Both the position numbers and the translations under genes were made by a program. DNA of 57,537 nucleotides from a virus. Below are positions 13,920 to 35,970 of this stretch, one piece after another (positions within the stretch are counted from its first letter, which is position 1; every line of letters begins with the position of its first letter). The DNA lies in the IMG/VR virus record IMGVR_UViG_3300019776_001107, positions 1-57,537 of that record; one strand, written 5' to 3'. Under the pieces are notes generated by a model that had not been told where the DNA came from, did no database searches, and saw only the letters and a list, made by a program, of their open reading frames with translations.

Positions 13920-13983
13920 TGCTTATTCGTTCACTTCCGTGGTAGTTGATCTGAGTGGCGTGACGCTAGCTCTGTTCTGCGAA

Positions 13984-14994
13984 TTACTTGGAGAGCTCGA
14001 TGAATGGGACAAACACTTCGAGCAACGACAATCCGCCGTGCGCAAGTAGGCGATTGCTTTGCCCACTTACTTTCCAGTTTCGTCGACCTAATACAAACCT
14101 GTGTTTGCCATGCTGAGTTTTCAATTCGAGGTCGATCGGCGGTAGCCATGCCGCCGGCTGTGATGAGTTAGATGAAGATGAATTGGCAGCAGTACGGCCG
14201 CTGGCGAATATCTGCTTCATGTAACTTGCTTGTTCACCGTCGAGATTGCTGAAGTACCCGCATGCCGCATAACCATGGTCGGATGTAATCACAACTCGTC
14301 GACCGCTCGCAAGCTTCTCAACGAAGCCCCAGAAATCGTCGCCAGTCAGAGCGGCATGCGCTTCGCTGGCAAGTCTCTTTAGGCCTTCACCTGGCTTGGC
14401 GAGTTCATGCAATCGATGGTCTGGCCAATGATGCCAGTAAGCGATTGATTCTTGAGCGCCGATGCTTGCAGCGCATTCGGTCCATGGAAGCTCAGTACAC
14501 TCAGTCCTGGCACCGGTTAGCTTGTGCGCTTTGCCGGCAGAGTTATTCTCAAGCGATGATCGCTGTGAGAAGCCTAGCGCTTTGGCGTAGTAGTTCGTCT
14601 CGCTGGGAAGCTCCGAAGCTAGAGCAGCACTGTTGTGAATGGTGTAGCCGCGTGCGGTTGCTTGCTCCAAAATCCAAGGAGACTCGCGAAGCGAAAGACC
14701 ATCGAGAATCAGCAAGGCTTTGCCACCATGGATTCGATTCCAGAATTCGACGACTGCCTCGCTGCCGCGCAGCATGCAAGATTCAAATGACTGCCAAAGG
14801 TCCCAGCACGAACTTGAGACTGCATTCTCGAGCTCGTTGATGGCGCGATCTCGATTTACGATCTCTGCATCGGCGCTTTTGCCACCTGGTAGCGGAGCCG
14901 AGAAGTAATTCCAAAGGTATGCACTAATCGCTTCCCAAGCTTCCTTAGGCGGTTTGCTAGTGATAAAATCGAGTAGCTCGTAGGTCATGCACAT
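13984..14994 (-). CDS. pglZ: short PglZ-domain protein
   Basis: The 336-residue protein has the alkaline-phosphatase-superfamily signatures of PglZ: ALLILDGLSLRES with metal-ligand Asp98, and VVITSDHGYA with Asp239 and His240, ending with HGGLSLLEVFVPFIEL. BREX PglZ proteins are usually about twice as long, so this is a reduced form that lacks the N-terminal part. The ATG at 14994 overlaps the stop of the ATPase gene (TAATG), a coupled start. PglZ is the common marker of BREX and Pgl systems; its exact activity in defence is not settled. The family call is firm, its role here inferred. Confidence 0.85.
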   Translation of the reverse strand: MCMTYELLDFITSKPPKEAWEAISAYLWNYFSAPLPGGKSADAEIVNRDRAINELENAVSSSCWDLWQSFESCMLRGSEAVVEFWNRIHGGKALLILDGLSLRESPWILEQATARGYTIHNSAALASELPSETNYYAKALGFSQRSSLENNSAGKAHKLTGARTECTELPWTECAASIGAQESIAYWHHWPDHRLHELAKPGEGLKRLASEAHAALTGDDFWGFVEKLASGRRVVITSDHGYAACGYFSNLDGEQASYMKQIFASGRTAANSSSSNSSQPAAWLPPIDLELKTQHGKHRFVLGRRNWKVSGQSNRLLAHGGLSLLEVFVPFIELSK

Positions 14995-17753
14995 TAGTTG
15001 GCATCCTTATCGAGTTCGAGTCCATAGGTAACACCATCAGGGAGATCCTTGAGCAGCTTGGCGAGCTGGGCTCCTGTCATCTTCTCCACGCATATGCGGA
15101 TGTTACCGACAGGAGTTCCTGCGTTCACACCCCACGACTCAAGTTGACCAATCAAATTGAGTGCCGAGGTCGCTGGCGCTGTGCGACGCACAACGGTCAC
15201 TTCCTTTACCTGAGGAGTGCCTCCCCCTTGTTCTGATCCGGAATTTCCTGACGAGCCAGAGTTGCCGTTGCCAGTCGTTGGAGGCGTGGTTCCTCCGAAC
15301 AAGTTGGGGAATGGGTTAGGCGGTGTGACGACGGCTGGCGTTGGAGTATCGCCACCGGTGGGCGCTGGCCCCTTGCCACCGCTCGCTGCTGCACTGTCAG
15401 GCAACTGAATGATCGTCTCGTTTAGATGTGAACCCGTGCCAAGCTTGCCCTTCATGCGATTCCACGCCGACTCCGCATCTTCGCCCGGCTTGGCTTGGAG
15501 GTGGTCGGTTCCGCGCACATTGATCGCTATGTCGCCGTGAGCACAAATGCGCAAGAGCTTCTCTTTCACATCGGTTTCACCCAGCCATGGAATGCAGGTC
15601 TTCCCACCTGGACGCGGCTCGCGTAGGTCCTTCAGCAGTTTTCCGACCGATTCATTCGACTCGGCTAGCAGCAAGACGTAGTCTTCAAAGTCTTCGGGAA
15701 TGAAGATCTCCTCCCGGATCGTCTTGTCGATTTCGTCTGGGATCTTGTCACCAGTCGAGTTGAGTTTCGCTTCTTCGAATACACACTTGGCTGGTTCGGC
15801 ATAGTTCCAAACGCTGAGCAAGGCCAAACGGTCGAAGCGTCCCTTGAGCTTGGGAATCAGTTCGTCTTTGCTAAAGGATTTAGCCAGGTCCGCGTAACCA
15901 GCTTTGGGATCGTTCTTGTGCCACTCCTTGGCAAGGTAGACAGCTCGAGCCAATACGACCAGTTCGCGATCGTAGAAAACATTGTCAGTACCCTTTTGCG
16001 GCAGGAGAAAGCGGATCGTATTTCGATTCTCTTGAAGGTGAGTCTTCAGCCACTCGCCGAGCGTGGCATTCAGCTTGTCTGGATACTCTGGCAATACCAG
16101 AACATTCAGACGCTTGTCGTCCCAAGTTTTCGGGTGAAATCGTTCATCGAAGTCGCTCCACGGATCGGATTGCCAATGGGTCTTCAGCATCAGGACTCGA
16201 TACTTGGCCGAGATCTGCGTATCACCACCAAGGACGTACTGGATTACCTCTGCGAGATGTTCAATATCTTTTCCCGCATGCTCACCCTCGCGAAAGAGCT
16301 TGTTATTCTTCGCATAGGACAAGAGTTTCGCGCGGGCGTTCTCTTCTTGACGGAAGAGTAGCCGTCCACCAACTTGATGAATGTTGAAGCTGTTGTCGAC
16401 GATCTGAGCCAGCTCGACCTCAAACGCGTTGTCATCGATCTTCTTGGCTCGAGTGATGTCGATTTGCAGATCTTGCGGCTCTGCACCGCGCATTTGCTCG
16501 ACGTTCAAGGATCGCAACCACAGCGAACTAATAATCTGTTCGGCGTGAGGCAGCACATGCGCCGCATTAGTGACATTGGCGAGAACAGCTTCAAGATTAC
16601 GTTGAGCTTTCTCACGCAAGTCTTTGTGTTGCTGGTTAGCAACTGAATCGAGAAGTGAGCCAACTGCCGATTTCTCATTCGTCAAAGAGAAATCCGCTGC
16701 GGTAACGATTGCGTCTTTCGGATCATGGTGCTTGTACAGATCAACTAGGATTTTGATTAGGTCGCGAGTCTGTTGAGCATCGGTGGCAACCAGGACTTGA
16801 TCGTCCAGCAGTTGCAGCAAGTGCGGAGCGTAGGGCCAAGACTCAATGAACTCTGCTTTCTTCTTGTCGCGATCTTGCTCGGGTGTGTTTTCGAGTCGGA
16901 AGTACTCCGACATATGGGTGTTAATCAGGAAATCGATGTCATTCGGATGCACTTGCACTCGGTTTTCAAAGATACGATAGAGGAGCAGCCGTTTGCGGTC
17001 ACGTTTCGCGTAAGGCCCTTTGAAATCAACGTCGACTGGATTGACGCGTCGAATCTGTTGGTAGGCATCAGAATTGCCGTCGCGGACCGAGACGGCAAGC
17101 ACAAGGAGCTCTGGGTTGCTTTGAGCAATCTCGGATAGTATCTGAATGAAGTTGAACGCCCAGTTGCGACGGGGGTGTTGCTTTGTGTTGGTTAGTCCTT
17201 CGAACCAAGTTTGGAATTCGTCAACGATAAACATCGTTGGCTTTTCCTGAAACATCTTGATCATCAGGTCGTAACTCGGGACATCCGTTTTGTTGTCACC
17301 AGCGTGGTTCCAGATTCCCCGATACACTTCGCCCTTGGGATGGTTATCGAAGAGTACGTCCCAAAGATATTGATACCGCTGGAGATGCATGCTCTCGGCA
17401 ATGACATGGCAGTCGGTGCGAAGCTGAAGTTGCTTGAGCTTTGGATCGCCAAGCGTGTGTGACCATTGGTCAAGCCACTCTCTACCTTCAACTGGGTTCA
17501 TACACAGATGGAACAACGCTGCCAGCAAGTGGGATTTACCTTGGCCGCGAGAGCCGATCAGGGCCAGTGGACGAGATTGGCCAGGGCTAGTCGCTTCTAT
17601 GGTCTTAAGCAAATCGAAAGACGGATAAGTGATGCGCAAGAAGTCTTTAGCGTTCTGCTGCAACGCGCCGGTCTGTGACTGGTTCGTGAAATCGACCGTC
17701 GTCCCTTTGAGTTTCTTGCCTTTGAATTCGTCACGTAGCTGGAGCTCGATCAT
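14994..17753 (-). CDS. DUF499-type AAA+ ATPase (BrxC/PglY-like)
   Basis: The 919-residue protein has Walker A GSRGQGKS at residues 67-74 and a Walker B TMFIVDEFQTWFEG near residue 180, followed by ALSVRDGN-type sensor segments. This fits the large DUF499 ATPases that go with PglZ in BREX and Pgl systems. Residues about 790-850 form a Pro/Thr/Gly/Ser-rich linker before a small C-terminal domain of about 70 residues (VRRTAPATSALNLIGQLE onwards). The start is the ATG at 17753. It is cotranslated with PglZ. The likely role is an ATP-driven assembly platform for the complex. Confidence 0.85.
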   Translation of the reverse strand: MIELQLRDEFKGKKLKGTTVDFTNQSQTGALQQNAKDFLRITYPSFDLLKTIEATSPGQSRPLALIGSRGQGKSHLLAALFHLCMNPVEGREWLDQWSHTLGDPKLKQLQLRTDCHVIAESMHLQRYQYLWDVLFDNHPKGEVYRGIWNHAGDNKTDVPSYDLMIKMFQEKPTMFIVDEFQTWFEGLTNTKQHPRRNWAFNFIQILSEIAQSNPELLVLAVSVRDGNSDAYQQIRRVNPVDVDFKGPYAKRDRKRLLLYRIFENRVQVHPNDIDFLINTHMSEYFRLENTPEQDRDKKKAEFIESWPYAPHLLQLLDDQVLVATDAQQTRDLIKILVDLYKHHDPKDAIVTAADFSLTNEKSAVGSLLDSVANQQHKDLREKAQRNLEAVLANVTNAAHVLPHAEQIISSLWLRSLNVEQMRGAEPQDLQIDITRAKKIDDNAFEVELAQIVDNSFNIHQVGGRLLFRQEENARAKLLSYAKNNKLFREGEHAGKDIEHLAEVIQYVLGGDTQISAKYRVLMLKTHWQSDPWSDFDERFHPKTWDDKRLNVLVLPEYPDKLNATLGEWLKTHLQENRNTIRFLLPQKGTDNVFYDRELVVLARAVYLAKEWHKNDPKAGYADLAKSFSKDELIPKLKGRFDRLALLSVWNYAEPAKCVFEEAKLNSTGDKIPDEIDKTIREEIFIPEDFEDYVLLLAESNESVGKLLKDLREPRPGGKTCIPWLGETDVKEKLLRICAHGDIAINVRGTDHLQAKPGEDAESAWNRMKGKLGTGSHLNETIIQLPDSAAASGGKGPAPTGGDTPTPAVVTPPNPFPNLFGGTTPPTTGNGNSGSSGNSGSEQGGGTPQVKEVTVVRRTAPATSALNLIGQLESWGVNAGTPVGNIRICVEKMTGAQLAKLLKDLPDGVTYGLELDKDAN

Positions 17754-18180: not shown

Positions 18181-20178
18181 ATGTGGACCGACAATGAAAC
18201 AGTCGTGGATTTCTTGGGCTTTAAGGTTCACGCAGAACTAATTCGATCTGTCGTCATCGACAAGAATCTTTTGCCCGTCACGCTTGGCGTCTTCGCTGAT
18301 TGGGGAGGTGGCAAGACTAGCCTCATGCGGATGCTGGAGGAGTCTCTAGATCCTGAAAAGTGGCCCAATGGATCGAAGGAACAAAAGAGTTGTGAGAAGG
18401 TTGTATGCCTCTATTTCAACGGTTGGCAGTTCGAGGGGTACGACGATGCAAAGTCGGCGATCTTAACCTCGGTACTGACATCGATGGGAGAGCACAAGCG
18501 ATTCGGGCCAAAGTTTCGTGACGGATGTACCTCGTTGCTCAAATCGGTCAACTGGATGAGAGTTGCACATATGGGGTTCAAGAACGTAGCTTTGCCCGCA
18601 ATTGCCGCGTATGCAAGCGGTGGTGCGTCTCTTCTGCCTTCGTTCCTTACTTCAATGGCAGGCTACTTTCCAATTCCAGGAATGCAACCGAACGCGCCGC
18701 CAAGCCCTCAACCAGGGCAGCAGCAGGCATCCCCCCCAAGTAACAATAGCTCTACGATCAAGGAAGAAATCAACTGGGAGGATTTGCTTAACAAAGACAA
18801 GTCGCCTGCGAGCCCATTAGACGTTCGAACATTTCGAGACAAGTTCGCGAAGTTACTCAAAGACACGGACATCGATTCCTTGGTGGTTTTGATAGATGAC
18901 TTAGATCGATGCTCTCCTGAACGCATCGTTGAGAATCTCGAGGCAATTAAACTCTTTCTGAATGTGGATAAGACAGCCTTTGTAATTGGCGCAGATCCGA
19001 GGATTGTTAGGCATTCGATCGCATGGAAGTACAAACGATTCGAAGAAAATGTTTCGATTGCAGACGAATCAGCAATAATTAATGACTATCTTGAAAAGCT
19101 AATTCAGTTTCCATATCGGCTACCCAAACTGTCCTCAGCTGAGATTGAAACATACATGGCATTACTCTTCTGCCAGGCACATTTGGATGAAAAGTTTTTC
19201 AAGTCGACGATTGCGGCCTGTGATGCTCAGAGAGCTAAAGACCGCTATTCAGTGTTTAGCTACTCTTCTATCCAGGCTGCATTGAAAACAGAAAATTGCA
19301 ACAGCATCCCCGATGGGCTCGATAAAGCACTCGCATTCACAGCAACCGCTGCACCATTGATCACAGAGGGACTCAAGGGGAACCCACGCCAAGTGAAGCG
19401 ATTCCTTAACGCATTTGTGTTGCGGAAAAAGTTAGCGGAGGTTGCCGGGCTCTCCAACATAAAGGATTCAGTCCTCGTAAAGCTGATGATATTGGAGTAC
19501 TCAAATGAGCCGAAGTTCCGTGAACTCTACGACTGGCAAGCCGCCTCCAAGGGACTTCCCAAACAAATCGAACAGATGGAGCAATTTGTCAAGGTAAAGT
19601 CTCCAAAAAAGAAATCGCCCGATGCAGAGTTGAGTAATCCAATGCAAGAGGGATGGGAAACTCCCAACCTCACTCGTTGGCTAAATATGGAACCATCGCT
19701 TATCGGTGAGGACTTAGGAGACTATTTCTGGATTGCTCGAGATCGCCTGCAATCCTCCATTTCTGGAATGTCACTTGTACCGCCGTTGGTGCGTCGCGTA
19801 TTCGAGAATCTCTTAAGCGAAGCCAGTGGTCAAAGAATAGAAGCAGCGACTAGTGCTTCTGAATTCCATGAATCAGAAAGAGCCATTCTCTTCGAACTCG
19901 CAACGCGATACATAAAGCAGAATACTGGGAACAAGTCGGGTTACGACGCGTACCGAGCACTCATCGAAAAAGGCGTCCATGGCGCTGCATCGGCCTTAGC
20001 TAATGTTTTGCGAGAAGTGCCCGCGAATCTAATTCCAGCAGCAGTGGGGGGGGATGTTTTGACACTCATGAAATCAAAACCGGAGCTGCGGGCAGTGTTA
20101 GAGGGCGTGATAGAAAGTCTAGAAAAGTCGGAAACACAGATAGGAAAATTGATCAAGCAACTCTCCAAATTCAACTAG
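18181..20178 (+). CDS. qatA: QatA, KAP-family P-loop NTPase
   Basis: The 665-residue protein has the KAP layout: Walker A DWGGGKTSL (residues 40-48), the KAP-type CLYFNGWQFEGYDDAK, then an inserted hydrophobic segment (about 125-165, ALPAIAAYASGGASLLPSFL) and a Pro/Gln-rich loop, then Walker B LVVLIDDLDRCSP (about 233-245) and the GNPRQVKRFLNAF motif. KAP NTPases carry such membrane-associated insertions. It is the first gene of a four-gene plus-strand operon whose order matches the experimentally defined QatABCD anti-phage system. Its mechanism is unknown in the family. Confidence 0.92.
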   Translation: MWTDNETVVDFLGFKVHAELIRSVVIDKNLLPVTLGVFADWGGGKTSLMRMLEESLDPEKWPNGSKEQKSCEKVVCLYFNGWQFEGYDDAKSAILTSVLTSMGEHKRFGPKFRDGCTSLLKSVNWMRVAHMGFKNVALPAIAAYASGGASLLPSFLTSMAGYFPIPGMQPNAPPSPQPGQQQASPPSNNSSTIKEEINWEDLLNKDKSPASPLDVRTFRDKFAKLLKDTDIDSLVVLIDDLDRCSPERIVENLEAIKLFLNVDKTAFVIGADPRIVRHSIAWKYKRFEENVSIADESAIINDYLEKLIQFPYRLPKLSSAEIETYMALLFCQAHLDEKFFKSTIAACDAQRAKDRYSVFSYSSIQAALKTENCNSIPDGLDKALAFTATAAPLITEGLKGNPRQVKRFLNAFVLRKKLAEVAGLSNIKDSVLVKLMILEYSNEPKFRELYDWQAASKGLPKQIEQMEQFVKVKSPKKKSPDAELSNPMQEGWETPNLTRWLNMEPSLIGEDLGDYFWIARDRLQSSISGMSLVPPLVRRVFENLLSEASGQRIEAATSASEFHESERAILFELATRYIKQNTGNKSGYDAYRALIEKGVHGAASALANVLREVPANLIPAAVGGDVLTLMKSKPELRAVLEGVIESLEKSETQIGKLIKQLSKFN

Positions 20179-20191
20179 GGCGAGCTCCGAA

Positions 20192-20911
20192 ATGGGAACA
20201 TCAACTGACTATTCAGCCCCACCGAACTGGAGAAATTTGAAAGGGGCCATAACACGCACAGGCGGCTCTGCAACTGTTCCGGAAAAAGTTCGTGAACTAC
20301 TCCGTGCGCACATCGTTACAAATGGTGGTGCAAAACAGATATCTTCCGGGCGTGGGCAGCTGGGAACCGGTCGCACGGCTAAAAGTGTGGGGCGATCACT
20401 GGCAAACTTCGTTTCGTCGGTATCGCAATCCGGGCTCGACCAAACACTGCGTGCTAATGGATTGGGAGAGCTTGTTGGCCGTTCAGTTACAGAGATCTTC
20501 ATCGGCATTGTTTCGCTTTGTGGTGGAACCGATGGGGCAATGGACTCGGCAGATGCGAGGAATGCTCTATCAGCAACATTAGACGAGATCTGCAAAGAAG
20601 CAGATTCGGCTGAAAAACTTGAAAAGCAATTGGCTGCGCAGATGGACGGGGATGGATTGGGTGCTCTTCTGTTCAGGTATTTTGGTAACTACTTGTTTGA
20701 ACAATTCTGTCGTGTCTTTTTTGGTCAGTTGGTGAAAAAACATGGGGACACTTTGGCACACGCATTTTTGCAGCAAATTCGAGACGTGATCAAGGCAGAT
20801 CTGACTTACCGAACCTTCGGCAAAGACCTCTCGAGAGTGAATTGGTTTGGAAGAGAGGGTGCAAAAATCGCGTCGGAAGTAATGCGGGATACATTGGCAG
20901 TATTTGAGTAG
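20192..20911 (+). CDS. qatB: QatB
   Basis: A 239-residue protein 13 bp after qatA. It begins MGTSTDYSAPPNW and has a Gly/Ser-rich N-terminal third followed by a helical C-terminal domain (LLFRYFGNYLFEQFCRVFF). No enzyme motif is visible. The call rests on position between a KAP NTPase and a QueC-like protein plus general resemblance to QatB proteins. Confidence 0.85.
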   Translation: MGTSTDYSAPPNWRNLKGAITRTGGSATVPEKVRELLRAHIVTNGGAKQISSGRGQLGTGRTAKSVGRSLANFVSSVSQSGLDQTLRANGLGELVGRSVTEIFIGIVSLCGGTDGAMDSADARNALSATLDEICKEADSAEKLEKQLAAQMDGDGLGALLFRYFGNYLFEQFCRVFFGQLVKKHGDTLAHAFLQQIRDVIKADLTYRTFGKDLSRVNWFGREGAKIASEVMRDTLAVFE

Positions 20912-20916
20912 ATCAC

Positions 20917-22263
20917 ATGAAAGCGTCAGTTGAAATTAGGTCAAATGGCAAGTGGAGACATGATTGCGCACCAGTCTCAATCTGTATTGAAGGCTCTGAA
21001 ATAGCGCACTTGTATTGCGACTTCACGAAACTACTCAAAACTGTAGGAAATCCAACAGATTTATCGCTCGACTTCTTGTTAGTTGCTGCAACGGTCTATT
21101 CGTTGGATAAGTTGACCGAACGCTCGAAGTCAAGAAACGGATGGGAGAGGGAATTTTCTGTTTCGATTCCAGTAAAAAGCTCCGCACGCTGGATGAAGGC
21201 AAGGAACAAAATTGAAGCCTGCCTAGATTTTCTGAGTGGTGACAACTGGAATATCACATTCACAGAGCGGACTCGCGAGATAGTACGCAAAAATGCGTCC
21301 TTGAAGAAAAAGATCAAGAAGTCGGAACGTCTGAATGCAGATGAGGTATGCCTTTTTTCTGGCGGGCTCGATTCATTGATCGGCACCATTGACGCGCTTC
21401 ATCGAACTGGAGACCGTCGATTGGCGCTTGTAGGTCACCATGATCCAAACATAGGGGGCGTTGAAAAGGACCAAAAACAGCTACTCGAACACCTCGAGTC
21501 AGCCTATCCAAATCGCTGCCACTCGGTTTTTGTTGGAGTGGGGCATTCTGGGAAAGGAAATGAGATATCCATGAGAAGCCGTTCTCTATTGTTCATAGGA
21601 CTTGGGCTAGTAGTGGCTGATCATTTGGGGGAGGGCACCAGATTGCTAATCCCTGAAAATGGAACCGTCGCGCTCAATGTGCCACTAACAGCGTCACGTC
21701 GCGGTAGTTGTTCAACTCGGACAGCACATCCGCACTACCTTTCTCTTTTGAAGGATTGGCTCAATGCAGTGGGACTGCGACATCCAGTCGAGAATCCGCT
21801 TCTCGATAAGACGAAGGGTGAGGCGGTAAAGTCCTGCTTGAACAAAGCCCTTCTTCAGTCGTTGGTAACTAAAAGCACATCGTGCGCAAAGCCGGGTCAC
21901 ACCGTTTGGTGGGTGCGAAGAAATGCGAATGGTTGTGGACAGTGTATGCCATGTATTTTTCGTCGGGCTGCACTGAACACTGCTGGATTGGATACAGAGA
22001 TCTACGGAAACGATATTTGCAATGGTGAGGTAGACGTATTCAATCCGAGTACTGACGCAGCGGATGATTTTCGCGCTGTCCTTTCCTTCCTTAGTTCAAA
22101 GCACTCTGTGCAGGATATTGCCAAGCTACTTGTGTCTAGTTGCCCGTTACCCCCCAATACTGTAATGGATCACGCGAATACCGTTTACCGCGCTATGGAA
22201 GAGGTCCGTGAGCTCATTCGACAGAAAGCCACAAAGAAGATTCAACGGGCTGCAGGAATATGA
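20917..22263 (+). CDS. qatC: QatC, QueC-like protein
   Basis: The 448-residue protein carries the PP-loop of adenine-nucleotide alpha hydrolases, CLFSGGLDSLIGTIDA (SGGLDS at residues 148-153), as in QueC, the 7-cyano-7-deazaguanine synthase. The C-terminal Cys cluster (CAKPGH through CGQCMPCIFRRA, about residues 322-350) resembles QueC's zinc site. An N-terminal extension of about 140 residues sets it apart from housekeeping QueC. In Qat systems it is essential for defence; whether it makes a deazapurine is not known. It starts 5 bp after qatB. Confidence 0.92.
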   Translation: MKASVEIRSNGKWRHDCAPVSICIEGSEIAHLYCDFTKLLKTVGNPTDLSLDFLLVAATVYSLDKLTERSKSRNGWEREFSVSIPVKSSARWMKARNKIEACLDFLSGDNWNITFTERTREIVRKNASLKKKIKKSERLNADEVCLFSGGLDSLIGTIDALHRTGDRRLALVGHHDPNIGGVEKDQKQLLEHLESAYPNRCHSVFVGVGHSGKGNEISMRSRSLLFIGLGLVVADHLGEGTRLLIPENGTVALNVPLTASRRGSCSTRTAHPHYLSLLKDWLNAVGLRHPVENPLLDKTKGEAVKSCLNKALLQSLVTKSTSCAKPGHTVWWVRRNANGCGQCMPCIFRRAALNTAGLDTEIYGNDICNGEVDVFNPSTDAADDFRAVLSFLSSKHSVQDIAKLLVSSCPLPPNTVMDHANTVYRAMEEVRELIRQKATKKIQRAAGI

Positions 22264-22275
22264 TCAGGGTTATCA

Positions 22276-23022
22276 ATGTTAATTGACACGCACTGCCACG
22301 TTGATCGATTTGCTGATCCTGATGCTATCGCTTCCAGCTGCGATGAAGCGAAAGTGTTTACTATTGCTGTCTCGCACTTGCCAAGTCATTTTCAATTTTC
22401 GGCCGATGCTTTGGTTAACACGAGATATGTACGTCCCGCATTGGGATTCCATCCTCTTGCAATGCAATCAGATCGGGATGAGCTACAAGTATTTCGAAAT
22501 CACTTTGAACGCGCTCAATTTATTGGCGAAGTTGGGCTAGATTATTCGGCCAGTGGCCTAAAGACCAAGGAAATGCAAATGCGAGTATTTCGCGAAATTG
22601 TTAAGTGCCTTGCTGATACCCCGAAGATCACGACAATTCACACTAAGAAATCCGCCTCAGACGTAGTATCGATACTCATTCAGCATCGTGTAACCGACGT
22701 TATCTTGCATTGGTACTCTGATTCAACTGCAGTACTGAGAGATGCTGTAGAAGCTGGGTTTTATTTCTCAATTAACTCTGCAATGTTGAGCTCGAAGTCT
22801 GGGCGAACGGTTTTGGAATTAGTTCCAAAATCTAGAATACTAACGGAGACGGACGGCCCCTACATAAGAGTCGGAGGCAAGCCGGCTTGCCCACTAGGAG
22901 TCTCGAAAGTTGTTGAGTCAATTGGTCAATTCTGGGGATTTACCAAGGAAGAAGCCGAGTTAATCATCGAAACAAACTTTCGAACCTTGTGCAAGAAGAA
23001 CTCTCTCGAACTGCCAGATTAA
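22276..23022 (+). CDS. qatD: QatD, TatD-family metal hydrolase
   Basis: The 248-residue protein has the TatD metal ligands in order: DTHCHVDRF near the N-terminus, GEVGLDYS, TIHTKKSASD, ILHWYSDS and TETDGPY. TatD proteins are metal-dependent DNases. It begins 12 bp after qatC and completes the QatABCD set. It ends at TAA 23020-23022, facing the prophage genes. Confidence 0.92.
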   Translation: MLIDTHCHVDRFADPDAIASSCDEAKVFTIAVSHLPSHFQFSADALVNTRYVRPALGFHPLAMQSDRDELQVFRNHFERAQFIGEVGLDYSASGLKTKEMQMRVFREIVKCLADTPKITTIHTKKSASDVVSILIQHRVTDVILHWYSDSTAVLRDAVEAGFYFSINSAMLSSKSGRTVLELVPKSRILTETDGPYIRVGGKPACPLGVSKVVESIGQFWGFTKEEAELIIETNFRTLCKKNSLELPD

Positions 23023-23301: not shown

Positions 23302-24084
23302 CTATTCGCCAGATTGTTTGAGTATTCGATGCGCCACGAACATCCCCACAGAGTGCGGATAGTTCGGATCGATGTTGAAGACGTGCGTTTGGCCCAGAAA
23401 GTTGGCCAACAGAAGATTGTCCTTGCGACAATGCCATTCGCCGCGAATCCAACCCACGCGGTCCATCAAGCCGAGCGCCGATAACTCTGGGATCACTACA
23501 TACTCCGCGCCCTCACAATCGAGCTTGAGGAGATCGACCTCTTCGATACCAGTTCCCCACACGCGGGACCACAACTCATCGACCGTGATCGCGGGGACTT
23601 CGATTCCGAAGTCCTTGTAACGAGGCTGGATCGATTCCCAGATCATGGGCACATACTCCGCAACGCGACTGTGTGAAACCGGAGAGGCGAGCAAGCATTT
23701 TCCGGGCTTGGTCGAGATCGCTGCGTTAATCCTCAAAATCTGTGACTCTGGGATATGGGCCGTGTTGCGACATAGGAGCTCAAAACTCTCCGGATGAGGC
23801 TCCACGGATACGATGCGAGCTTTGGGCCAGAACTCGTGGCACATCACGGTAAAGCTGCCGACATGCGCCCCGATATCGAGGACGGTTCGAACGTTATGCG
23901 AACGCAATTCCTGGATCTGGTACTCATCGTGAAAGACCGCGTTGGCGAACTGCGCGCTCGCAGGTTCGATGTAGAAATCACGACCGTAGACTTGGTAACA
24001 TGCCGCATGTATCAAGATTCGAGCCCTCCCTGGGTTGGGTGTAAAGACGATGGAATTCACGCGCCAATTGCACACGCTCAGCAC
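23302..24084 (-). CDS. FkbM-family SAM methyltransferase
   Basis: SAM motif I TVLDIGAHVGSFTV, followed by VSVEPHPESFELL and DLLKLDCEGAEY, are typical of FkbM methyltransferases, which methylate sugar hydroxyls among other substrates. The 260-residue frame starts at an ATG inside the preceding glycosyltransferase gene, overlapping it by 107 bp; a TTG near 24016 could be the true start. It is the last gene of the late operon, and its place beside a glycosyltransferase suggests modification of the sugar put on a virion protein. Confidence 0.8.
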   Translation of the reverse strand: MLSVCNWRVNSIVFTPNPGRARILIHAACYQVYGRDFYIEPASAQFANAVFHDEYQIQELRSHNVRTVLDIGAHVGSFTVMCHEFWPKARIVSVEPHPESFELLCRNTAHIPESQILRINAAISTKPGKCLLASPVSHSRVAEYVPMIWESIQPRYKDFGIEVPAITVDELWSRVWGTGIEEVDLLKLDCEGAEYVVIPELSALGLMDRVGWIRGEWHCRKDNLLLANFLGQTHVFNIDPNYPHSVGMFVAHRILKQSGE

Positions 24085-26026
24085 GAGGACAATTCGCCAA
24101 GTGGATCACCTTGGCCTGGGGGACGAACTCCCGGAAACGAGGCATCCAGTACTGCGTGTTCAGTTCCGTTGGCAACGGAAAGAAGGGAAACGGCCGCGCC
24201 TGATGCTCGACCCAAAACTGCTCCGCACAATGCGTCGGCAGAAACGGTTTTGATGGAGGTCTCCACAGATCGGCGTGCTGAGCATCGCAGAGGACGAGCC
24301 CCGTGTTCCAGGTCGACTCCGTGAAATCCATCGAGAGACCTTGGGACTCGAGGATGTTCCGACGCTCTTCGAAGGCCCACTCGTGACTCGGTAGATGAGG
24401 CCAATCGTCGTGCATGGCAACATGACCAGTGGGCACCAGTTCGAACAAGTCCGTCGCTTCTGGTGTCAGAAACACATCCGCATCCACAAACAGCGTGCGT
24501 TCGTAAGCATTGGCAAAGGCATGCACACGGAACTTTTCGAGGCCCCACCAGTCCTGTGTCTTGTTGGTCAACACGACCAAGTCGGCGTTCACACGTTCTG
24601 CATAGGCCTCCATGAGCGGTTTAGTGTATTTCAGCATCTGCTGGAATGCATCGCCCACGGCGATCGTGATGATCAGGCGTGGAGACGCTGGAACAACGGC
24701 ATCGACAACCGGTTTCCATTGCACCTCCGGAATCATCTCGATTGGCATCCGTTCATGTTCGATCCACACGCCGCGCCATATTCCTTCGTCATCGAGACGC
24801 AAATGACAAGTCGGTCGATCGAGTCGCGCTAGCGTGAGGACCGGTTCGCTGCTTACATGGTTGAGGTGCCACAGCCGTTCACATTCGGCGGCCCCTTCGG
24901 TGACGATGCCCTGCGGACCGAGCCGGATCCAGCGTTCGTCGTACCCTACACGGCGGTACAGGGCTCGCGCTCCTTCCAGCGAAGCGATGGTCTCGGACTC
25001 TTCCATGGTCGGAGCTTCATTTTTCCACAGGATGCCACTCCATTGGCTTGCCAGATCCCGAACCAATTGGAAGCAGAGTTCCTCATTGGCCAGCGAATCC
25101 ACAAAACGATTGCCACCGAATCGCCATTTGTCCTGGCATCGATGCTGGAAGACGATCTGACCGCGGAAATCGAACTGAACGATCGTGTGGACATTCCATC
25201 CAGGACCGGCGCTTGGCATCGCATACTCCGTTCCCAAACGCCGCCACCCAAGATGAAAACACTCCTTGTCTCCATAAACATGCTGGAACGTGAAGTCCGA
25301 ATGCTCGGCATAGAATAAGGACAACCGCAGTTCCCCATCGCAACGGCGCTTGTCGATCAGGTACTGGCCCGATTCGAAGGCCCGTTCATGCTGGGCGACC
25401 TCGGGATCTGCCATGTCGTGCATACCAAAAACTCGCCACACGCCAGGCTTGAGCGTCCAGCATGCATAGTCGGGCCAGAAGACCGCGCCATGGCGATTGA
25501 ATTCCTCGCAGTCGAAGAGGTAGGTTGGATCACAAACGACCCCATTGTCCGCATCCAGGAACAGAACTTGCGCGAACGGCGAGTGAAGCGTTGCAAAGAG
25601 CTTTAACTCCCATCCACAGAGAATGCGACAGCGATGTTCTTTTTCCACTTCCCGAGCATCGATGCATTCCACACCGAGGGGTTCGAGGAGGCGCTTCATG
25701 TAGGGATCCATCTCGGAATCCCCGAGATACCAAAGCTGAATCGGGAGCGTGCATCCAAAGTGACGAAGCAGATTCACGTTGACCCACACGCTTGGAAAAT
25801 ATTTCAAGCCGCCACCCGCAATAACGATGCCTCTCTCTTGGGAGTAGGGCATGCGGCTAGGTTTTATCTCATCAACGTAGCGATCGACCAGCAACCGATG
25901 GGCTTCGATCGTATTGTCCCACGTACCCCAGGCATTGGGCCAAGGACCCGGTGGGCAATGATCGATGAGGTCCATCATCTCTTCTGGAGTCATCTCTGGA
26001 TGCGCTTCCATGCAACTAGCCATCAT
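23978..26026 (-). CDS. two-domain glycosyltransferase
   Basis: A 682-residue protein with two glycosyltransferase-A-like halves. The first (about residues 65-270) has GIVIAGGGLKYFPSVWVNVN, LWYLGDSE and the DxD motif VLFLDADNG, resembling fungal-type mannosyltransferases. The second (about 425-665) has ITIAVGDAFQQML, TLFVDADVF as its DxD, and STWNTGLVLCDAQ, resembling family 8-like transferases. It follows the Ser/Gly-repeat protein by 24 bp, so that protein is the obvious acceptor. Substrate and donor cannot be read from the sequence. Confidence 0.8.
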   Translation of the reverse strand: MMASCMEAHPEMTPEEMMDLIDHCPPGPWPNAWGTWDNTIEAHRLLVDRYVDEIKPSRMPYSQERGIVIAGGGLKYFPSVWVNVNLLRHFGCTLPIQLWYLGDSEMDPYMKRLLEPLGVECIDAREVEKEHRCRILCGWELKLFATLHSPFAQVLFLDADNGVVCDPTYLFDCEEFNRHGAVFWPDYACWTLKPGVWRVFGMHDMADPEVAQHERAFESGQYLIDKRRCDGELRLSLFYAEHSDFTFQHVYGDKECFHLGWRRLGTEYAMPSAGPGWNVHTIVQFDFRGQIVFQHRCQDKWRFGGNRFVDSLANEELCFQLVRDLASQWSGILWKNEAPTMEESETIASLEGARALYRRVGYDERWIRLGPQGIVTEGAAECERLWHLNHVSSEPVLTLARLDRPTCHLRLDDEGIWRGVWIEHERMPIEMIPEVQWKPVVDAVVPASPRLIITIAVGDAFQQMLKYTKPLMEAYAERVNADLVVLTNKTQDWWGLEKFRVHAFANAYERTLFVDADVFLTPEATDLFELVPTGHVAMHDDWPHLPSHEWAFEERRNILESQGLSMDFTESTWNTGLVLCDAQHADLWRPPSKPFLPTHCAEQFWVEHQARPFPFFPLPTELNTQYWMPRFREFVPQAKVIHLANCPRAERVQLAREFHRLYTQPREGSNLDTCGMLPSLRS

Positions 26027-26050
26027 GCACCTCGATCGTATTCATTGCAT

Positions 26051-27250
26051 CTATCCACAGCACTTGGGAAGAGGATTCACTTCTTGATAACATTCGGGCG
26101 GGATCCCTAAGTCGGCAGCCAGTTGGCGTGGGTCCGCACCCTGGTACCACTTCACCCAATTGAAAACCGGGTTCGGAAAATAGCAGTCTGTAGGCCGAGA
26201 CTCGGAGCACTGTGCCCAGAAGGAGTATTCGCCATACGTCCCCATGCACTCATTCTTCACAACCCCGACCAAGATTCCGCCAGGTTCGGAGCACAGACCG
26301 CCTCCCAGTCCCTGGAAGTACACCGCGACCCACAGGTTTGGACAGAAACCCGAGGATCCCGATGATCCTGAGCTACCAGAGCCTGAACTCCCCTGGCTGC
26401 CGCTTGAACCATACGATGCCCCCGAGGAGCCGGATTGCCCCGACGAGCCCGAATTGGAACCGCTCGAGCCTGTAGATCCAGAACCGGAGCCGTAGCTGCC
26501 ACTCGAGGGTTTACTCCCAGAGCTCGAACCACTCGGGCCAGAGGACCCAGAACCCGATGGTCCACTCTGGGAACCCGAACTCGAACCGCTACCACTTTGC
26601 GAACCCGAGTTGGATCCGGAACTTCCAGACATCGAGCCGGAACCGGATGATCCAGATCCAATGGTGCCAGAACTACCACTGCTACCCGATGACCCGCTGG
26701 AGCCTGACGAACCGCTGGATCCTGAAGATCCACTCGAACCACTGGATCCCGATGATCCGCTTGAGCCGGAGGATCCGCTGCTTCCTGAGCTTCCTTGGGA
26801 TCCCGAAACTCCACTTGGCTTCGATCCGGATCCAGATGCTCCACTGCTCCCGCTCGATTCCGAGCTACCACTCGATGACAAAGAACCAGACGAACCGGAT
26901 GAGCTCGAAGATCCACTCGAACCCGAAGATCCTGAGGAACCCGATGAGCCACTGCTCCCCGAGGAACCGCTCCCTGAAGATCCACTCGACGAAGAGTCGC
27001 AGCAGACGATTGCATAGACAGGAAGAGTATCGAACCCCACATACCGCATGAGGTACCGACCCATTTGAGGAAACTCACAGCTAGATACTGCATACAATGG
27101 TTCTCCATCGATCATTCCAAGGAAATGTCCGAGCTGACGTTTGGGGCCTTGCCCGGAGCGTTGTTGCACACACGTCGCTGCATACACTGGCAGGTCGTCG
27201 ATCGAGCCGATCATTTTGGTAGCGATATAGCGACGTGAAGTGAGAGTCAT
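26051..27250 (-). CDS. Ser/Gly-repeat protein, putative glycosylated fibre
   Basis: The 399-residue product starts at the ATG at 27250, which shares ATGA with the previous stop. Residues about 1-84 are a Cys-containing head with two similar units (YIATKMIGSIDDLPVYAAT and YLMRYVGFDTLPVYAIV). Then come about 215 residues of SGSSGSSG-type repeats (about 26350-27000), ending in a Cys-rich 100-residue C-terminal domain (FCPNLWVAVYFQG to KCCG). Codons within the repeats vary, so the protein pattern is under selection. The next gene is a glycosyltransferase, as with serine-rich repeat adhesins. Its place at the end of the tail genes suggests a receptor-binding or host-attachment fibre. Confidence 0.8.
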   Translation of the reverse strand: MTLTSRRYIATKMIGSIDDLPVYAATCVQQRSGQGPKRQLGHFLGMIDGEPLYAVSSCEFPQMGRYLMRYVGFDTLPVYAIVCCDSSSSGSSGSGSSGSSGSSGSSGSSGSSGSSSSSGSSGSLSSSGSSESSGSSGASGSGSKPSGVSGSQGSSGSSGSSGSSGSSGSSGSSGSSGSSGSSGSSGSSGSSGSSGTIGSGSSGSGSMSGSSGSNSGSQSGSGSSSGSQSGPSGSGSSGPSGSSSGSKPSSGSYGSGSGSTGSSGSNSGSSGQSGSSGASYGSSGSQGSSGSGSSGSSGSSGFCPNLWVAVYFQGLGGGLCSEPGGILVGVVKNECMGTYGEYSFWAQCSESRPTDCYFPNPVFNWVKWYQGADPRQLAADLGIPPECYQEVNPLPKCCG

Positions 27251-27918
27251 TTGTTGGCATCTACCACCTTGCAATCAAAGATCGTGCTCCAGGTTTTGGA
27301 CGCGACATCAAACTTCTGGACCACACCCGGGTAGTAACCATTCGCATCGGGGATGTTGCTGGTGATGAAGACGATCTCTTCGTAGTTGACGTCGTCAAAT
27401 CGAATGACTGCCCAGCGCACAGCACCCGTGGATTCGATCCATTGCACCGATGCTGGTCCGTGCGGAACGCTGCGCAAGTAACCGTTCTGGCCAGTCAAGG
27501 TTTCGGCGCATGCATATGCGATCGATCCGACCGAGACTCGTGTAATAATGCAGCCGCCAATTGCCGCGGTGCCAATCATGTTGTTTTTGAGCGGTTCCAG
27601 CAGCACTCCAAAACGTGAACCCGTGTTGGCGTTGGGAATCAGGCCTTGAAAACTGATCTGTCGTTTGAACTCTTTGACGTTGGCAACGGGCGTAATAATC
27701 GGTGTGCCCAGCGCGACAATCGAAAATCGATCCAGGTCGATACCCGTTTGATTGCGCACCTTGGCGAGGTTGGTTTGACGTGAACTCCCCTCGTCTTTTG
27801 AGATCTGATCGTGTCGCTGGTTCTTTTCATGTCGAGACAGATCCACCAGCGCATTCCAAGCCTCGGCCGGAATCTTGAGCCGATCTCCAGGTTGCACTTT
27901 ACGGAATTGGTCGCCCAT
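27247..27918 (-). CDS. tail-region structural protein, family not recognised
   Basis: The 223-residue protein starts MGDQFRKVQPGDRLKIPAEAWNA and is rich in beta-type segments (RFSIVALGTPIITPV, IGGCIITRVSVGS). I do not recognise the family. It lies between a distal tail protein and the Ser/Gly-repeat protein, with start and stop touching both, so it probably belongs to the tail tip or fibre base. Confidence 0.7.
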   Translation of the reverse strand: MGDQFRKVQPGDRLKIPAEAWNALVDLSRHEKNQRHDQISKDEGSSRQTNLAKVRNQTGIDLDRFSIVALGTPIITPVANVKEFKRQISFQGLIPNANTGSRFGVLLEPLKNNMIGTAAIGGCIITRVSVGSIAYACAETLTGQNGYLRSVPHGPASVQWIESTGAVRWAVIRFDDVNYEEIVFITSNIPDANGYYPGVVQKFDVASKTWSTIFDCKVVDANK

Positions 27919-27921
27919 GGA

Positions 27922-28713
27922 TCAGACTCCTATTCCGAGTCCTGAGAAATCCCCGTAGGGATAGACCTGTTCCACATAGGCTGCGATGGGACGCTTGATC
28001 AGCGCTTTAGCAGTCGCGTCTTCGTCGTCGATAAAGCGAACCCACAGGTATTGCCAACCTTCTTTCGAGATGCCTGTAATGGCTCCCAACGACAGCGAAG
28101 CAAAGTTCGGGCTCGCCGCGAAGCGAAAAGTGATCTCCCAGTCATCGAGTCCTCGTTTGGAGCCACTCGCGCCCAGGAATAAGACCTCTCCTTTCGCAAA
28201 TCCCTTGAATCCTCCTCCATTCACCTTCCCGGTGAGATTGAACAGCGCCAGTTTGTACGCTGGCGTTACGAGATCATTGAGGATGTAATGGGTCTCGGTA
28301 AAGTTGAAGACGGGGACGGTGATGTCCGTACCTTCGACTCGATCGTCCGTGACTCCGATGGCACCGAAAAAATCTGGGGCAGTGAAACCAGACGCCGAGT
28401 ACTTGCCAACGTTGGATAGGCTTTGAGAGATGTGCTGTGTGCCACCGCCGGTATCGAACGAGTACTGCGATTCGCTCTTCCACTTCACATATCTGGCAGT
28501 TCCCTCCCAGACACCATTCCCCAAATGAACCACGTGAAAGTCGTCGAGGAACAACTCACCAACTTTTGCGGGAAGCGTTGACACCATGAGGGACCTGGCC
28601 GTGGAGTAGTCCTCCGTATTCATGATCATGTAGACCAGATCATGAGTCGGATTGTCCTTGCTCTCGCTGATTTCCTTGGAGTCGAAGCGTTCGATGATGA
28701 TGGGGGCAGGCAT
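27922..28713 (-). CDS. distal tail or baseplate protein (putative)
   Basis: A 263-residue protein if it starts at MPAPIIIERF (28713), just after the tape-measure stop. It has mixed beta content (VWEGTARYVKW, WEITFRFAASPNFASL, QYLWVRFIDDED). Its position directly after the tape measure is where siphophages encode the distal tail protein. The function is assigned by position only. Confidence 0.65.
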   Translation of the reverse strand: MPAPIIIERFDSKEISESKDNPTHDLVYMIMNTEDYSTARSLMVSTLPAKVGELFLDDFHVVHLGNGVWEGTARYVKWKSESQYSFDTGGGTQHISQSLSNVGKYSASGFTAPDFFGAIGVTDDRVEGTDITVPVFNFTETHYILNDLVTPAYKLALFNLTGKVNGGGFKGFAKGEVLFLGASGSKRGLDDWEITFRFAASPNFASLSLGAITGISKEGWQYLWVRFIDDEDATAKALIKRPIAAYVEQVYPYGDFSGLGIGV

Positions 28714-28723
28714 TGGCGGTCTC

Positions 28724-30715
28724 CTATCCAAAGACCAAGCCACCACGTTCGGCTTGCTGTACGAGTTTCTTGGTGTTGGCGGCGACCTCTTCACTGGCTC
28801 GAGCGGTTCGTTCGCCGAGCGAATCGGCTCCGAGGTTTATGGCAGCGATGGGGTTGAATGTCCCAACGACATCCGTTTTCTTCTTGGTCTCCGCCAACGT
28901 TTGATCGAAGGCATCGATATTGGGGAGTGCGATTCCCGAGAGAGAGAATTTTCCAGGCGATCCTGGCGACGTCTCGGCTCGTTTGGCAGCCGCTTCACCC
29001 AACGCTGATTTCCATTCCCCTTTGGCTTTCTCGAGCTCCGCAGCCGAGTCAGCCAACGCTTTCTGATTGGCCGCGTCTAGAGCCGATTGTTCCCGGGCCT
29101 GCATGTCTCCAAGTGCCGACTGCGCTCCTTGGCGATCTTGCTCGATTTGGTTGCGAGCCCTCTGACGTTGCTTCTCGCGATCGAGGATCGTTTGATTCTG
29201 AGAGTTGTTGATCAGTTCATCCTGGCGAGCGCTCTCCTCGTTGATCTTGGCGACTTCGGCTTCTGCGTTCGTGTCGCCAAAGAGTCCCTGAATACGGGCC
29301 CACACCTTTTGGAAGAAACCACTGAACCGATTCCATCCCTTTTGCAACAGGCTGATCAGGACGGTCCAACTATCGGCGATGAAATGGGTGGTCTCTAACC
29401 AGCCCGTTTGCAGGCCTGCCCAGGCATCGGTCATCAGGCCAGCCACGCTAAAGACCGCACTCTGGAATATGCCAATGAAGACCCCCTTGAAGTCGAGCCA
29501 CTTCGATTGCAAGAACGCAATCCCACGTTGCCATTCCATCTTGAGAGTGAGCCACAAGATTTTGCCTGCGAGGGCAATGTCTCCCGTTGCCAGCGCATCT
29601 CCGATCCCTTGCCACGCTGCAAGTGCCGTATCTTTGAGTTCGTTGAATTGCTCGCCCAGCCACTGCATGGCCTGCGTTCCGGCACCGGTCATGTAAACGA
29701 AATAGCCAACCAACGCTGTGAGGCCTGCGATGGTCAGCCCAATGGGTGAGACCAGCGCCGCGATCGCGGTTCCCAGGATGGCGACCCCTTGCCCAATCCC
29801 CACGAGTACCGCCGCGGCCGCGCCAAAGATGGTGCTCAGACCGATCGCTGCGGTACCTACAGCAACTATCGCTGCACCAACGGCCGCCATGGCCATGCCC
29901 ACCTTAAAGACGGTGACGATTAAGCCTTTGTTGTTCTTGATCCAGTCACTCGTGGCGACGACGATTCGGACCGTCGCATCGATCATGGATGAGAGAACCG
30001 GTTCGAGCGCCGAGCCGATGGTGAAGACCGTCTTCTTGAGCACTTTCCACAGCACATCGATCCGATCCCCAAACGCCTCGGCCGCTTGTGCATCGTCAGT
30101 TGCCATGGTCAGTCCCAGTTCGCGGGCTTGCTGTTGCAGTTCTTCGATTCCCTTGGCACCCCCTTGGAGCATGGGAAGCAGCTGCGTTCCCGACTTACCG
30201 AAGATCGCCATCGCGGTCGCGGTTTTCATTGCCGGGTCGGTGATTTGCGATATTCGATCGGCGATCAATTGGAACTGCTTATCGGGGGAAAGTTTGGAGA
30301 GCCTCGCAACACTCAGTCCTAGGGATGCCAGCGTTTCCTGGGCCGACTGGGATCCAGACGCCGCTTCGAAGAGCATTTTCTGCATCTTCTTTAGGGATCC
30401 TTCGAGCGTTCCGAGATCGGCACCCGATTGTTCGGCAGCAAACCCAAGCTCCGAAAGAGCTTCGACCGACACACCGGTCCTTTGGCTCATGTCGACCATG
30501 TCGCTTCCCATGTCGGCAAAGACCTTGGCTGCGCCCGCCAGAGGCGTGACGACTCCCGCACCGAGCATCGCCATCTTGGTTCCGATCCCTTGCAGGCTCT
30601 TGCCAAAGGCGTCCAGTCGTTTAGCGGCATCGTTGAGTCCCTTCACCAGACGTGAGTCTTTGGTGGAGAGCTCGATGTAGGCTGCACCGGCTTTGATGTT
30701 GGAACTGGAAGCCAT
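28724..30715 (-). CDS. tail tape measure protein
   Basis: A 663-residue protein that opens with AAYIELSTKDSRLVKGLNDAAKRL and LGAGVVTPLAGAAKVFADMGSDMVDMS, the typical start of tape measure proteins. Two hydrophobic helical blocks occupy about residues 260-350 (VGMAMAAVGAAIVAVG, GVAILGTAIAALVSPIGL), followed by long charged coiled coil (about 480-600). It sets tail length and so implies a long-tailed (siphovirus-type) particle. At 663 residues the tail would be short to medium. Confidence 0.92.
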   Translation of the reverse strand: MASSSNIKAGAAYIELSTKDSRLVKGLNDAAKRLDAFGKSLQGIGTKMAMLGAGVVTPLAGAAKVFADMGSDMVDMSQRTGVSVEALSELGFAAEQSGADLGTLEGSLKKMQKMLFEAASGSQSAQETLASLGLSVARLSKLSPDKQFQLIADRISQITDPAMKTATAMAIFGKSGTQLLPMLQGGAKGIEELQQQARELGLTMATDDAQAAEAFGDRIDVLWKVLKKTVFTIGSALEPVLSSMIDATVRIVVATSDWIKNNKGLIVTVFKVGMAMAAVGAAIVAVGTAAIGLSTIFGAAAAVLVGIGQGVAILGTAIAALVSPIGLTIAGLTALVGYFVYMTGAGTQAMQWLGEQFNELKDTALAAWQGIGDALATGDIALAGKILWLTLKMEWQRGIAFLQSKWLDFKGVFIGIFQSAVFSVAGLMTDAWAGLQTGWLETTHFIADSWTVLISLLQKGWNRFSGFFQKVWARIQGLFGDTNAEAEVAKINEESARQDELINNSQNQTILDREKQRQRARNQIEQDRQGAQSALGDMQAREQSALDAANQKALADSAAELEKAKGEWKSALGEAAAKRAETSPGSPGKFSLSGIALPNIDAFDQTLAETKKKTDVVGTFNPIAAINLGADSLGERTARASEEVAANTKKLVQQAERGGLVFG

Positions 30716-34722: not shown

Positions 34723-35970
34723 CTAGGTCTTGATGTTGGTCGGCGGCCTCGAGTTTTGTTCCATGAGTTTGAGCAACTGCTGGTATTGATCCATTAGCTG
34801 TTGGAACTGGTCGTCGCTCAGCAATGTATTGCCTCGAGACTTTCGAGCATTGCGGATCGCTTGGAGCACCAAGGGCAACCCGTACTGCAATCCCAAAAGC
34901 AAAAGGATGCTGGATGCAGCTGAGGTTGCCACCAATCCCATCGGTGTCCACTGCGGATCTTCAGGTTGCCGAATGGGTGCTGGTGCAACGTCGTCTGGTT
35001 CGCAAGGTGAGGGTTTGAGATTGGGACGATCAACGATCGAGTCGATCACATCGTCTTGAACTTGTGCCTGTGCCAAAAGGTTCACTGGCCAACGCTGGGG
35101 TTCGCCATAAATAGTGGATGGAACCTGAGCAATCATTTGCTCTTCGTCGCTCAGACCGCTTACTTCACGTGTCCCTGCCGGCAGACCTTCGAGAGTTGCG
35201 GGAAGCTTTCCTCGCATTGCGCTGAGCAGAAACGGTGTTGATTGACCGAGCCCTTCACCACCACCGGCCCAAGTTAGGAGTCCCACCACGCGAGGACCTC
35301 CATCGGTGTAGTCGATCAGGCTCGAACCACTCCGTCCCCCGATGGCTTCGGGTTTCCAAGAGAGGATTTGACCTTCTTTGCGATTGAGTCTGAGGACTTG
35401 CAGACTGGGCCATTCGCACCGCGGGCATCCAAAGGTCGTGACAGACGATTGATCGCTGGGGTACCGATCGGCCAGAGGAATTGGATCGACATCCTTAGCG
35501 AACGCTTGGCTGCACTTCAATAATGCAAAGTCAACACTGGTCCCTTTGCCATAGCCAGATGCGATGATCGTTCCGGTTCCTCTTTCACTGACACCGTTGG
35601 TGTTCCACCGTTCGACGTTGACGGTGCGACCTCGCTGCGTCCCAGCAACGTGCGCGTTGGTCAGCACGATCGCGTTCCCCTCGGAGGTTCGACCAACAAC
35701 GGTTCCACTCCCGCAAACACCGCTAACGGTAACCCGAACTGTCGCACGTACGACTTGATCGAAGCGATCTCTGTCGAGTCCGTTGGCTGTTGCCCGCGGC
35801 TCTTGATCCACAAGAGCGAGTTCTTCCCGCAATGGATCAAGAACGATGGCGCCCGGAGTAGCCTGCGCCACCTGACACTTGCCATCGATACAGATTTTTT
35901 CCTGTGCGAATGAAACAGAGGCGATGCAAGATGCCACCAGCAGAAGGAGCGAAAGAGAATTTGTTTTCAT
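34723..35970 (-). CDS. secreted, membrane-anchored trypsin-like serine protease
   Basis: The 415-residue protein starts with a signal peptide (KTNSLSLLLLVASCIASVSF, cleavage near residue 22). The trypsin fold has a full triad: His107 in LTNAHVAG, Asp147 in SVDFALLK and Ser214 in GGRSGSS. A hydrophobic helix near residues 343-368 (LVATSAASSILLLLGLQYGL) is followed by basic residues and a Gln-rich C-terminal tail, so the protein is probably held in the inner membrane with its protease outside. It lies within the head-joining genes on the same strand but has its own 50-bp upstream gap. It is not a standard virion gene; it may be a lysogenic-conversion cargo gene or serve release. Confidence 0.85.
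   Translation of the reverse strand: MKTNSLSLLLLVASCIASVSFAQEKICIDGKCQVAQATPGAIVLDPLREELALVDQEPRATANGLDRDRFDQVVRATVRVTVSGVCGSGTVVGRTSEGNAIVLTNAHVAGTQRGRTVNVERWNTNGVSERGTGTIIASGYGKGTSVDFALLKCSQAFAKDVDPIPLADRYPSDQSSVTTFGCPRCEWPSLQVLRLNRKEGQILSWKPEAIGGRSGSSLIDYTDGGPRVVGLLTWAGGGEGLGQSTPFLLSAMRGKLPATLEGLPAGTREVSGLSDEEQMIAQVPSTIYGEPQRWPVNLLAQAQVQDDVIDSIVDRPNLKPSPCEPDDVAPAPIRQPEDPQWTPMGLVATSAASSILLLLGLQYGLPLVLQAIRNARKSRGNTLLSDDQFQQLMDQYQQLLKLMEQNSRPPTNIKT

Follow-up and report, generated by a model that had tools for sequence, protein, structure and literature searches.

The Ser/Gly-repeat protein REP, encoded in the window (the whole stretch of 57,537 nucleotides analysed, an IMG/VR virus record of a planctomycete phage), is probably a tail appendage that carries O-glycans on its serines, attached by the products of neighbouring genes, as judged from sequence comparison across homologous loci. 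Phage virion glycosylation is known from few cases, and in the uncultured phage tail family described here a Ser-rich tail component seems to be coupled, at a single locus, with sugar enzymes of various kinds. If this reading is correct, the family would provide a naturally occurring set of matched substrates and enzymes for studies of Ser-specific O-glycosylation, along with new glycosyltransferases that have methyl- and sulfotransferases as partners, and would bear on the role of tail sugars in adsorption.

Gene order and domain make-up of the tail operon

The window encodes a tape measure protein, a portal, a terminase, a head protease and an integrase, and is thus viral. Its minus-strand tail operon runs in the order tape measure, UP2, UP1, REP, GT and FkbM:

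28724..30715 (-), tail tape measure protein (PHROG 8462, E 4e-45)
27922..28794 (-), UP2, conserved tail-operon protein used as survey anchor, with relatives in viral contigs
27247..27918 (-), UP1, conserved tail-operon protein, fused to Ser-rich repeats in relatives
26051..27250 (-), REP, Ser/Gly-repeat protein of 399 aa (ORF with ATG at 27250), kept at the same place in relatives
26999..27250 (-), REP N-terminal domain, 84 aa, probable tail-attachment part (75-87% identity in close relatives, 34-46% in distant ones)
26351..26998 (-), REP Ser/Gly repeat region, 216 aa, presumed glycan acceptor (58% Ser, 31% Gly, Thr 2/216)
26051..26350 (-), REP C-terminal domain, 99 aa with 8 Cys, presumed tip (homologues only in loci L013 and L014)
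23978..26026 (-), GT, two-domain glycosyltransferase of 682 aa (PF11051 Mannosyl_trans3 + GT8-like; Pfam, DxD motif)
23302..24084 (-), FkbM-family methyltransferase (PF05050/TIGR01444), true start possibly at a later codon

These genes overlap or nearly so (UP1 and REP share 4 bases, REP and GT are 24 bases apart, and GT and FkbM overlap by up to 107 bases), and are therefore read as one late tail operon. The original prediction of a repeat of about 215 residues with a Cys-rich C-terminal domain, followed by a two-domain glycosyltransferase and an FkbM methyltransferase, agrees with them to the base.

The N-terminal domain of REP holds three internal motif copies (LPVYAATC, EPLYAVSSC and LPVYAIVCC), and the repeat region contains 125 Ser, 66 Gly and 4 Pro among its 216 residues. 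By hydropathy, REP has no signal peptide, membrane segment or hydrophobic N-terminus (maximum over 19 residues, 1.14). Residues 65-270 of GT match PF11051 (E 2e-31; 109.8 bits against a Pfam gathering cut-off of 22), a family whose name, Mannosyl_trans3, does not fix the donor sugar. Residues 502-583 give a weak GT8 match below Pfam's cut-off (E 8e-4), and the DxD-type motif VLFLDAD is conserved in 36 relatives. The methyltransferase matches PF05050 (E 1.5e-12; 48.4 against 22.7 bits) and TIGR01444 (E 1.4e-23; 84 against 37.7 bits). Hydropathy reveals no clear membrane segment in GT or FkbM, and since GT is of this kind and REP lacks a signal peptide, modification would take place in the cytosol, before lysis.

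A search of solved structures with GT and FkbM gave no usable match. Comparison of structure models of UP1 (mean pLDDT 66) and UP2 with the PDB gave no trustworthy match to a solved tail protein, the best for UP2 being an unreliable one to a neck protein (Z 5.8), and in BFVD the UP2 model matches mainly unnamed phage proteins. DNA glycosylation as the role of GT is set aside, though not outright, as no base-hypermodification gene was found among the window proteins searched and GT sits in the tail operon.

Next to FkbM lies a complete QatABCD anti-phage defence operon (18181-23022, plus strand; PADLOC QatA 7e-100, QatB 1e-12, QatC 1e-96, QatD 8e-65). A second probable defence or modification block (10650-17753, minus strand) comprises a DNA methyltransferase-like protein (1089 aa, HmaB/PglX/DUF1156-like) and a 919-aa partner; a protein of similar appearance comes after GT in locus L106. 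The head and tail genes include a trypsin-like peptidase with a signal-like N-terminus (34723-35970, minus strand; PF13365).

Conservation of the locus and pairing of Ser-rich proteins with glycosyltransferases

Viral contigs and planctomycete genomes yield dozens of relatives of GT, UP1 and UP2, and the order tape measure, UP2, UP1, REP, GT (with FkbM in some) holds in close and distant relatives. The UP2-type tail family is present in 42 of 392 sampled planctomycete genomes (about a tenth), and no relative of GT or UP2 occurs among 50,697 phage records (isolate phages). One contig labelled Bacillota (L108) carries a planctomycete-type GT and is probably misbinned.

The C-terminal domain of REP falls into several unrelated classes among relatives. 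The N-terminal domain of the window protein is 83-87% identical to that of proteins bearing a CCCPC-type C-terminal domain, while its own C-terminal domain is related only to those of L013 and L014, which points to a tip swap in REP. Such exchange between relatives resembles that of receptor-binding tips. Relatives with the CCCPC-type domain include two loci encoding an extra small Cys-containing protein between REP and GT, which has no Pfam match (L002:7289-8008 and L099:7457-8008).

For the survey anchored on UP2, some loci were fetched by UP2 alone and others by GT or UP1. Removal of redundancy at 90% UP2 identity, with a minimum of 3.5 kb of downstream sequence required, left 63 loci; 62 were scored, as L110, with broken genes, was left out. 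A protein was called Ser-rich at 40% Ser or more over 60 residues with few Arg or Cys, as scoring Ser and Thr together gave out-of-frame false matches, and glycosyltransferases were sought via Pfam families or homology. After UP2/UP1, an adjacent glycosyltransferase gene is found in 33/33 loci with a Ser-rich protein and in 5/29 without one (Fisher p 1e-12, kinship not corrected for). Some type A loci, defined by a PF11051 enzyme, entered through GT itself, which biases the set towards pairing; with type A left out altogether, the counts are 19/19 Ser-rich loci against 5/29. Since some loci had already been seen while the idea was forming, the count was repeated on Planctomycetota chromosomes found with UP2 only, where a glycosyltransferase gene is adjacent in 8/8 Ser-rich loci and 2/29 others (p 1e-6; the enzymes were sought with a sequence panel from the first set, so that negatives are perhaps under-called, and some loci share a genome). 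This co-occurrence at homologous loci in both samples lends strong support to the claim that the glycosylation genes after the repeat protein are its own.

The sugar genes might instead modify the host envelope, causing receptor change or superinfection exclusion, with the site beside the Ser-rich gene serving as a cargo site only. Phage glycosyltransferases that alter host serotype are known, as mentioned in PMC12619734, and five Ser-poor loci carry glycosyltransferase genes (L160, L169, L213, L244 and, weakly, L233), so that such genes can occur without a Ser-rich neighbour. However, the pairing at every Ser-rich locus of the two samples against 7/58 of the others, the position of the sugar genes inside the late tail operon and the lack of visible membrane segments in GT and FkbM make an envelope role unlikely.

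Repeat composition and diversity of the sugar cassettes

The 40 Ser-Ser-Gly units of REP are written in 33 different 9-base encodings that use all six Ser codons, and no exact 9-base tandem repeat was found in the region; the variety of encodings and codons argues that the repeat reflects neither chance nor recent slippage and is held at the protein level. In the Ser-rich stretches of type A loci, median Ser is 52% against 1.3% for Thr, and over all loci 44% against 2.5%. Thr is one base change away from Ser, and its near-absence from the repeats would suit an enzyme acting on Ser only. The triplets of the Bacillus exosporium protein BclA are Thr-rich.

REP could also be a common trimeric tail fibre of the collagen-like kind, built of G-x-y repeats and unrelated to the sugar genes, as it matches Pfam Collagen (E 8e-8) as well as PHROGs of collagen-like tail proteins, and 18 of its 72 Gxx triplets are consecutive, with up to 31 consecutive in close relatives. 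The repeat nonetheless varies among relatives in length and type, from (SSG)n to SGESSG, (SSGP)n and poly-Ser. Relatives at the same place carry (SSGP)n in which no more than 2 triplets are consecutive (L035, L027 and L037), a broken SGESSG or poly-Ser, and Pro is scarce in the window repeat. As the uninterrupted G-x-y phase is not conserved, a collagen fibre is rejected as a general explanation, and for REP itself it is very improbable. UP1 itself carries the Ser-rich stretch as a fusion in L076, L078, L123, L131, L137 and others; in L086 the stretch belongs to a separate protein with a Hint-like domain. Embedded Hint/intein-like domains occur in two Ser/Gly-rich tail-operon proteins, L086:11196-12533 (PT-HINT, E 7e-4) and L207:10823-12478 (by eye).

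The 33 Ser-rich loci divide by enzyme into 14 with PF11051, 6 with GT4 and GT2 (GT64/LicD being occasional extra members), 9 with a methyltransferase and a sialyltransferase/MptE-like enzyme (type C, recognised only weakly by Pfam) and 4 with GT25 together with a sulfotransferase, GT32 or GT8. The partners thus comprise at least four unrelated glycosyltransferase types, and they go with Ser-rich proteins of different build. The best UP2 tree shows the cassette types intermixed, with 19 type changes in all and at least 9 among Ser-rich loci, for example between the strongly supported sister loci L033 (type A) and L139 (type B). Independent contrasts of Ser-rich protein and glycosyltransferase on well-supported branches give 2 in the same direction, 0 in the opposite one and 1 tie, and REP and PF11051 change together in 3/3 supported independent pairs, both too few for significance. 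The evidence for pairing is weaker than the plain Fisher values imply.

The Ser-rich and sugar genes may alternatively co-travel merely as neighbours in linked block exchange, the Ser/Gly region being no more than a flexible linker. This is in keeping with frequent recombination at the tail-end region (C-domain swaps and cassette changes), the typical linker composition of Gly and Ser, and the small number of phylogenetically independent pairs. Against it, unrelated glycosyltransferase types repeatedly meet unrelated Ser-rich proteins, 0/41 Ser-rich loci are without a glycosyltransferase, and Thr is avoided though all six Ser codons are used, and mere linkage therefore has a low probability.

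L169 encodes a fusion of a PF11051 enzyme with FkbM, suggesting that the two work in one pathway, although L169 itself has no Ser-rich protein. GT25-sulfotransferase fusions directly follow Ser-rich tail proteins in three loci (L135:10247-11722, L238:9057-10385 and L207:13715-15298); they suggest sulfated glycans, and their position would fit glycan decoration of the tail protein.

Proposed glycan and its possible role, compared with known systems

Under the proposal that REP is a glycosylated tail appendage, its N-terminal domain would anchor it to the tail beside UP1, the Ser/Gly region would form a flexible stalk, and the exchangeable C-terminal domain would be the tip meeting the host. The adjacent cytosolic GT would add sugars to stalk serines before or during assembly, its two catalytic halves possibly building a di- or oligosaccharide, which FkbM would then O-methylate. 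The glycan may stiffen and extend the stalk, shield it from proteases or aid sticking to polysaccharide. The description of REP as a fibre in the original prediction draws indirect support from the tail operon, the UP1 fusions in relatives and the exchanged C-terminal domain, from which a location in the particle is inferred. As for the methylated sugars, the gene and a fusion of the two enzymes exist, and from the family of FkbM and the fusion in L169 it is rather likely that FkbM methylates the REP glycan.

More broadly, it is about an even matter whether planctomycete phages carry a Ser-rich tail stalk together with a dedicated set of enzymes for building its glycan (glycosyltransferases plus methyl- or sulfotransferases), the whole module being exchanged at a single fixed position in the tail, which would be a phage counterpart of mucins and proteoglycans with glycan type as a variable virion trait. 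Searches of the open literature found no planctomycete phages with glycosylated tails and no Ser-rich tail appendage accompanied by a changeable sugar cassette of its own.

The parallel originally drawn with serine-rich repeat adhesins (Fap1, GspB and SraP, from accessory Sec loci) holds for a Ser-rich stalk followed by glycosyltransferase genes and is otherwise an analogy only, as REP lacks a signal peptide and membrane segment, and its repeats are Ser-Gly; no accessory SecA2/SecY2 gene was noticed among those of the window proteins that were searched. The closest working analogy is instead staphylococcal SdgA/SdgB, cytosolic glycosyltransferases encoded beside Ser-Asp repeat (Sdr) proteins, which they glycosylate on Ser (PMC3794999). 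Both systems have a single Ser-X dipeptide-rich region and glycosyltransferase genes adjoining the substrate gene, whereas the Sdr proteins are bacterial cell-wall adhesins and the window holds a phage tail operon without a wall anchor, with another glycosyltransferase family (PF11051) and a methyltransferase.

A fibre decorated with methylated sugars had been considered unusual for a virus; the recurrent module is so, but virus-encoded virion glycosylation, including that with methylated sugars, already has precedents, and the locus is ordinary in its parts. Mycobacteriophage virions are glycosylated by phage-encoded glycosyltransferases (Freeman et al. 2023, as cited in PMC12619734 and PMC10877033), although the targets named in those citing papers are capsid and tail-tube C-termini and not a Ser-rich appendage. 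In chlorovirus PBCV-1, A064R is a virus-encoded glycosyltransferase joined with a sugar O-methyltransferase that methylates the capsid glycan (PMC9614988). It resembles what is proposed for the window enzymes in that a glycosyltransferase and a sugar O-methyltransferase act on a virion glycoprotein, but the glycans there are N-linked and sit on an algal virus capsid. The exosporium filament of Bacillus, BclA, has a collagen-like stalk with an O-glycan ending in a methylated sugar (PMC6222408); it is, however, a bacterial spore protein, and members of the REP family do not share a conserved triplet phase.
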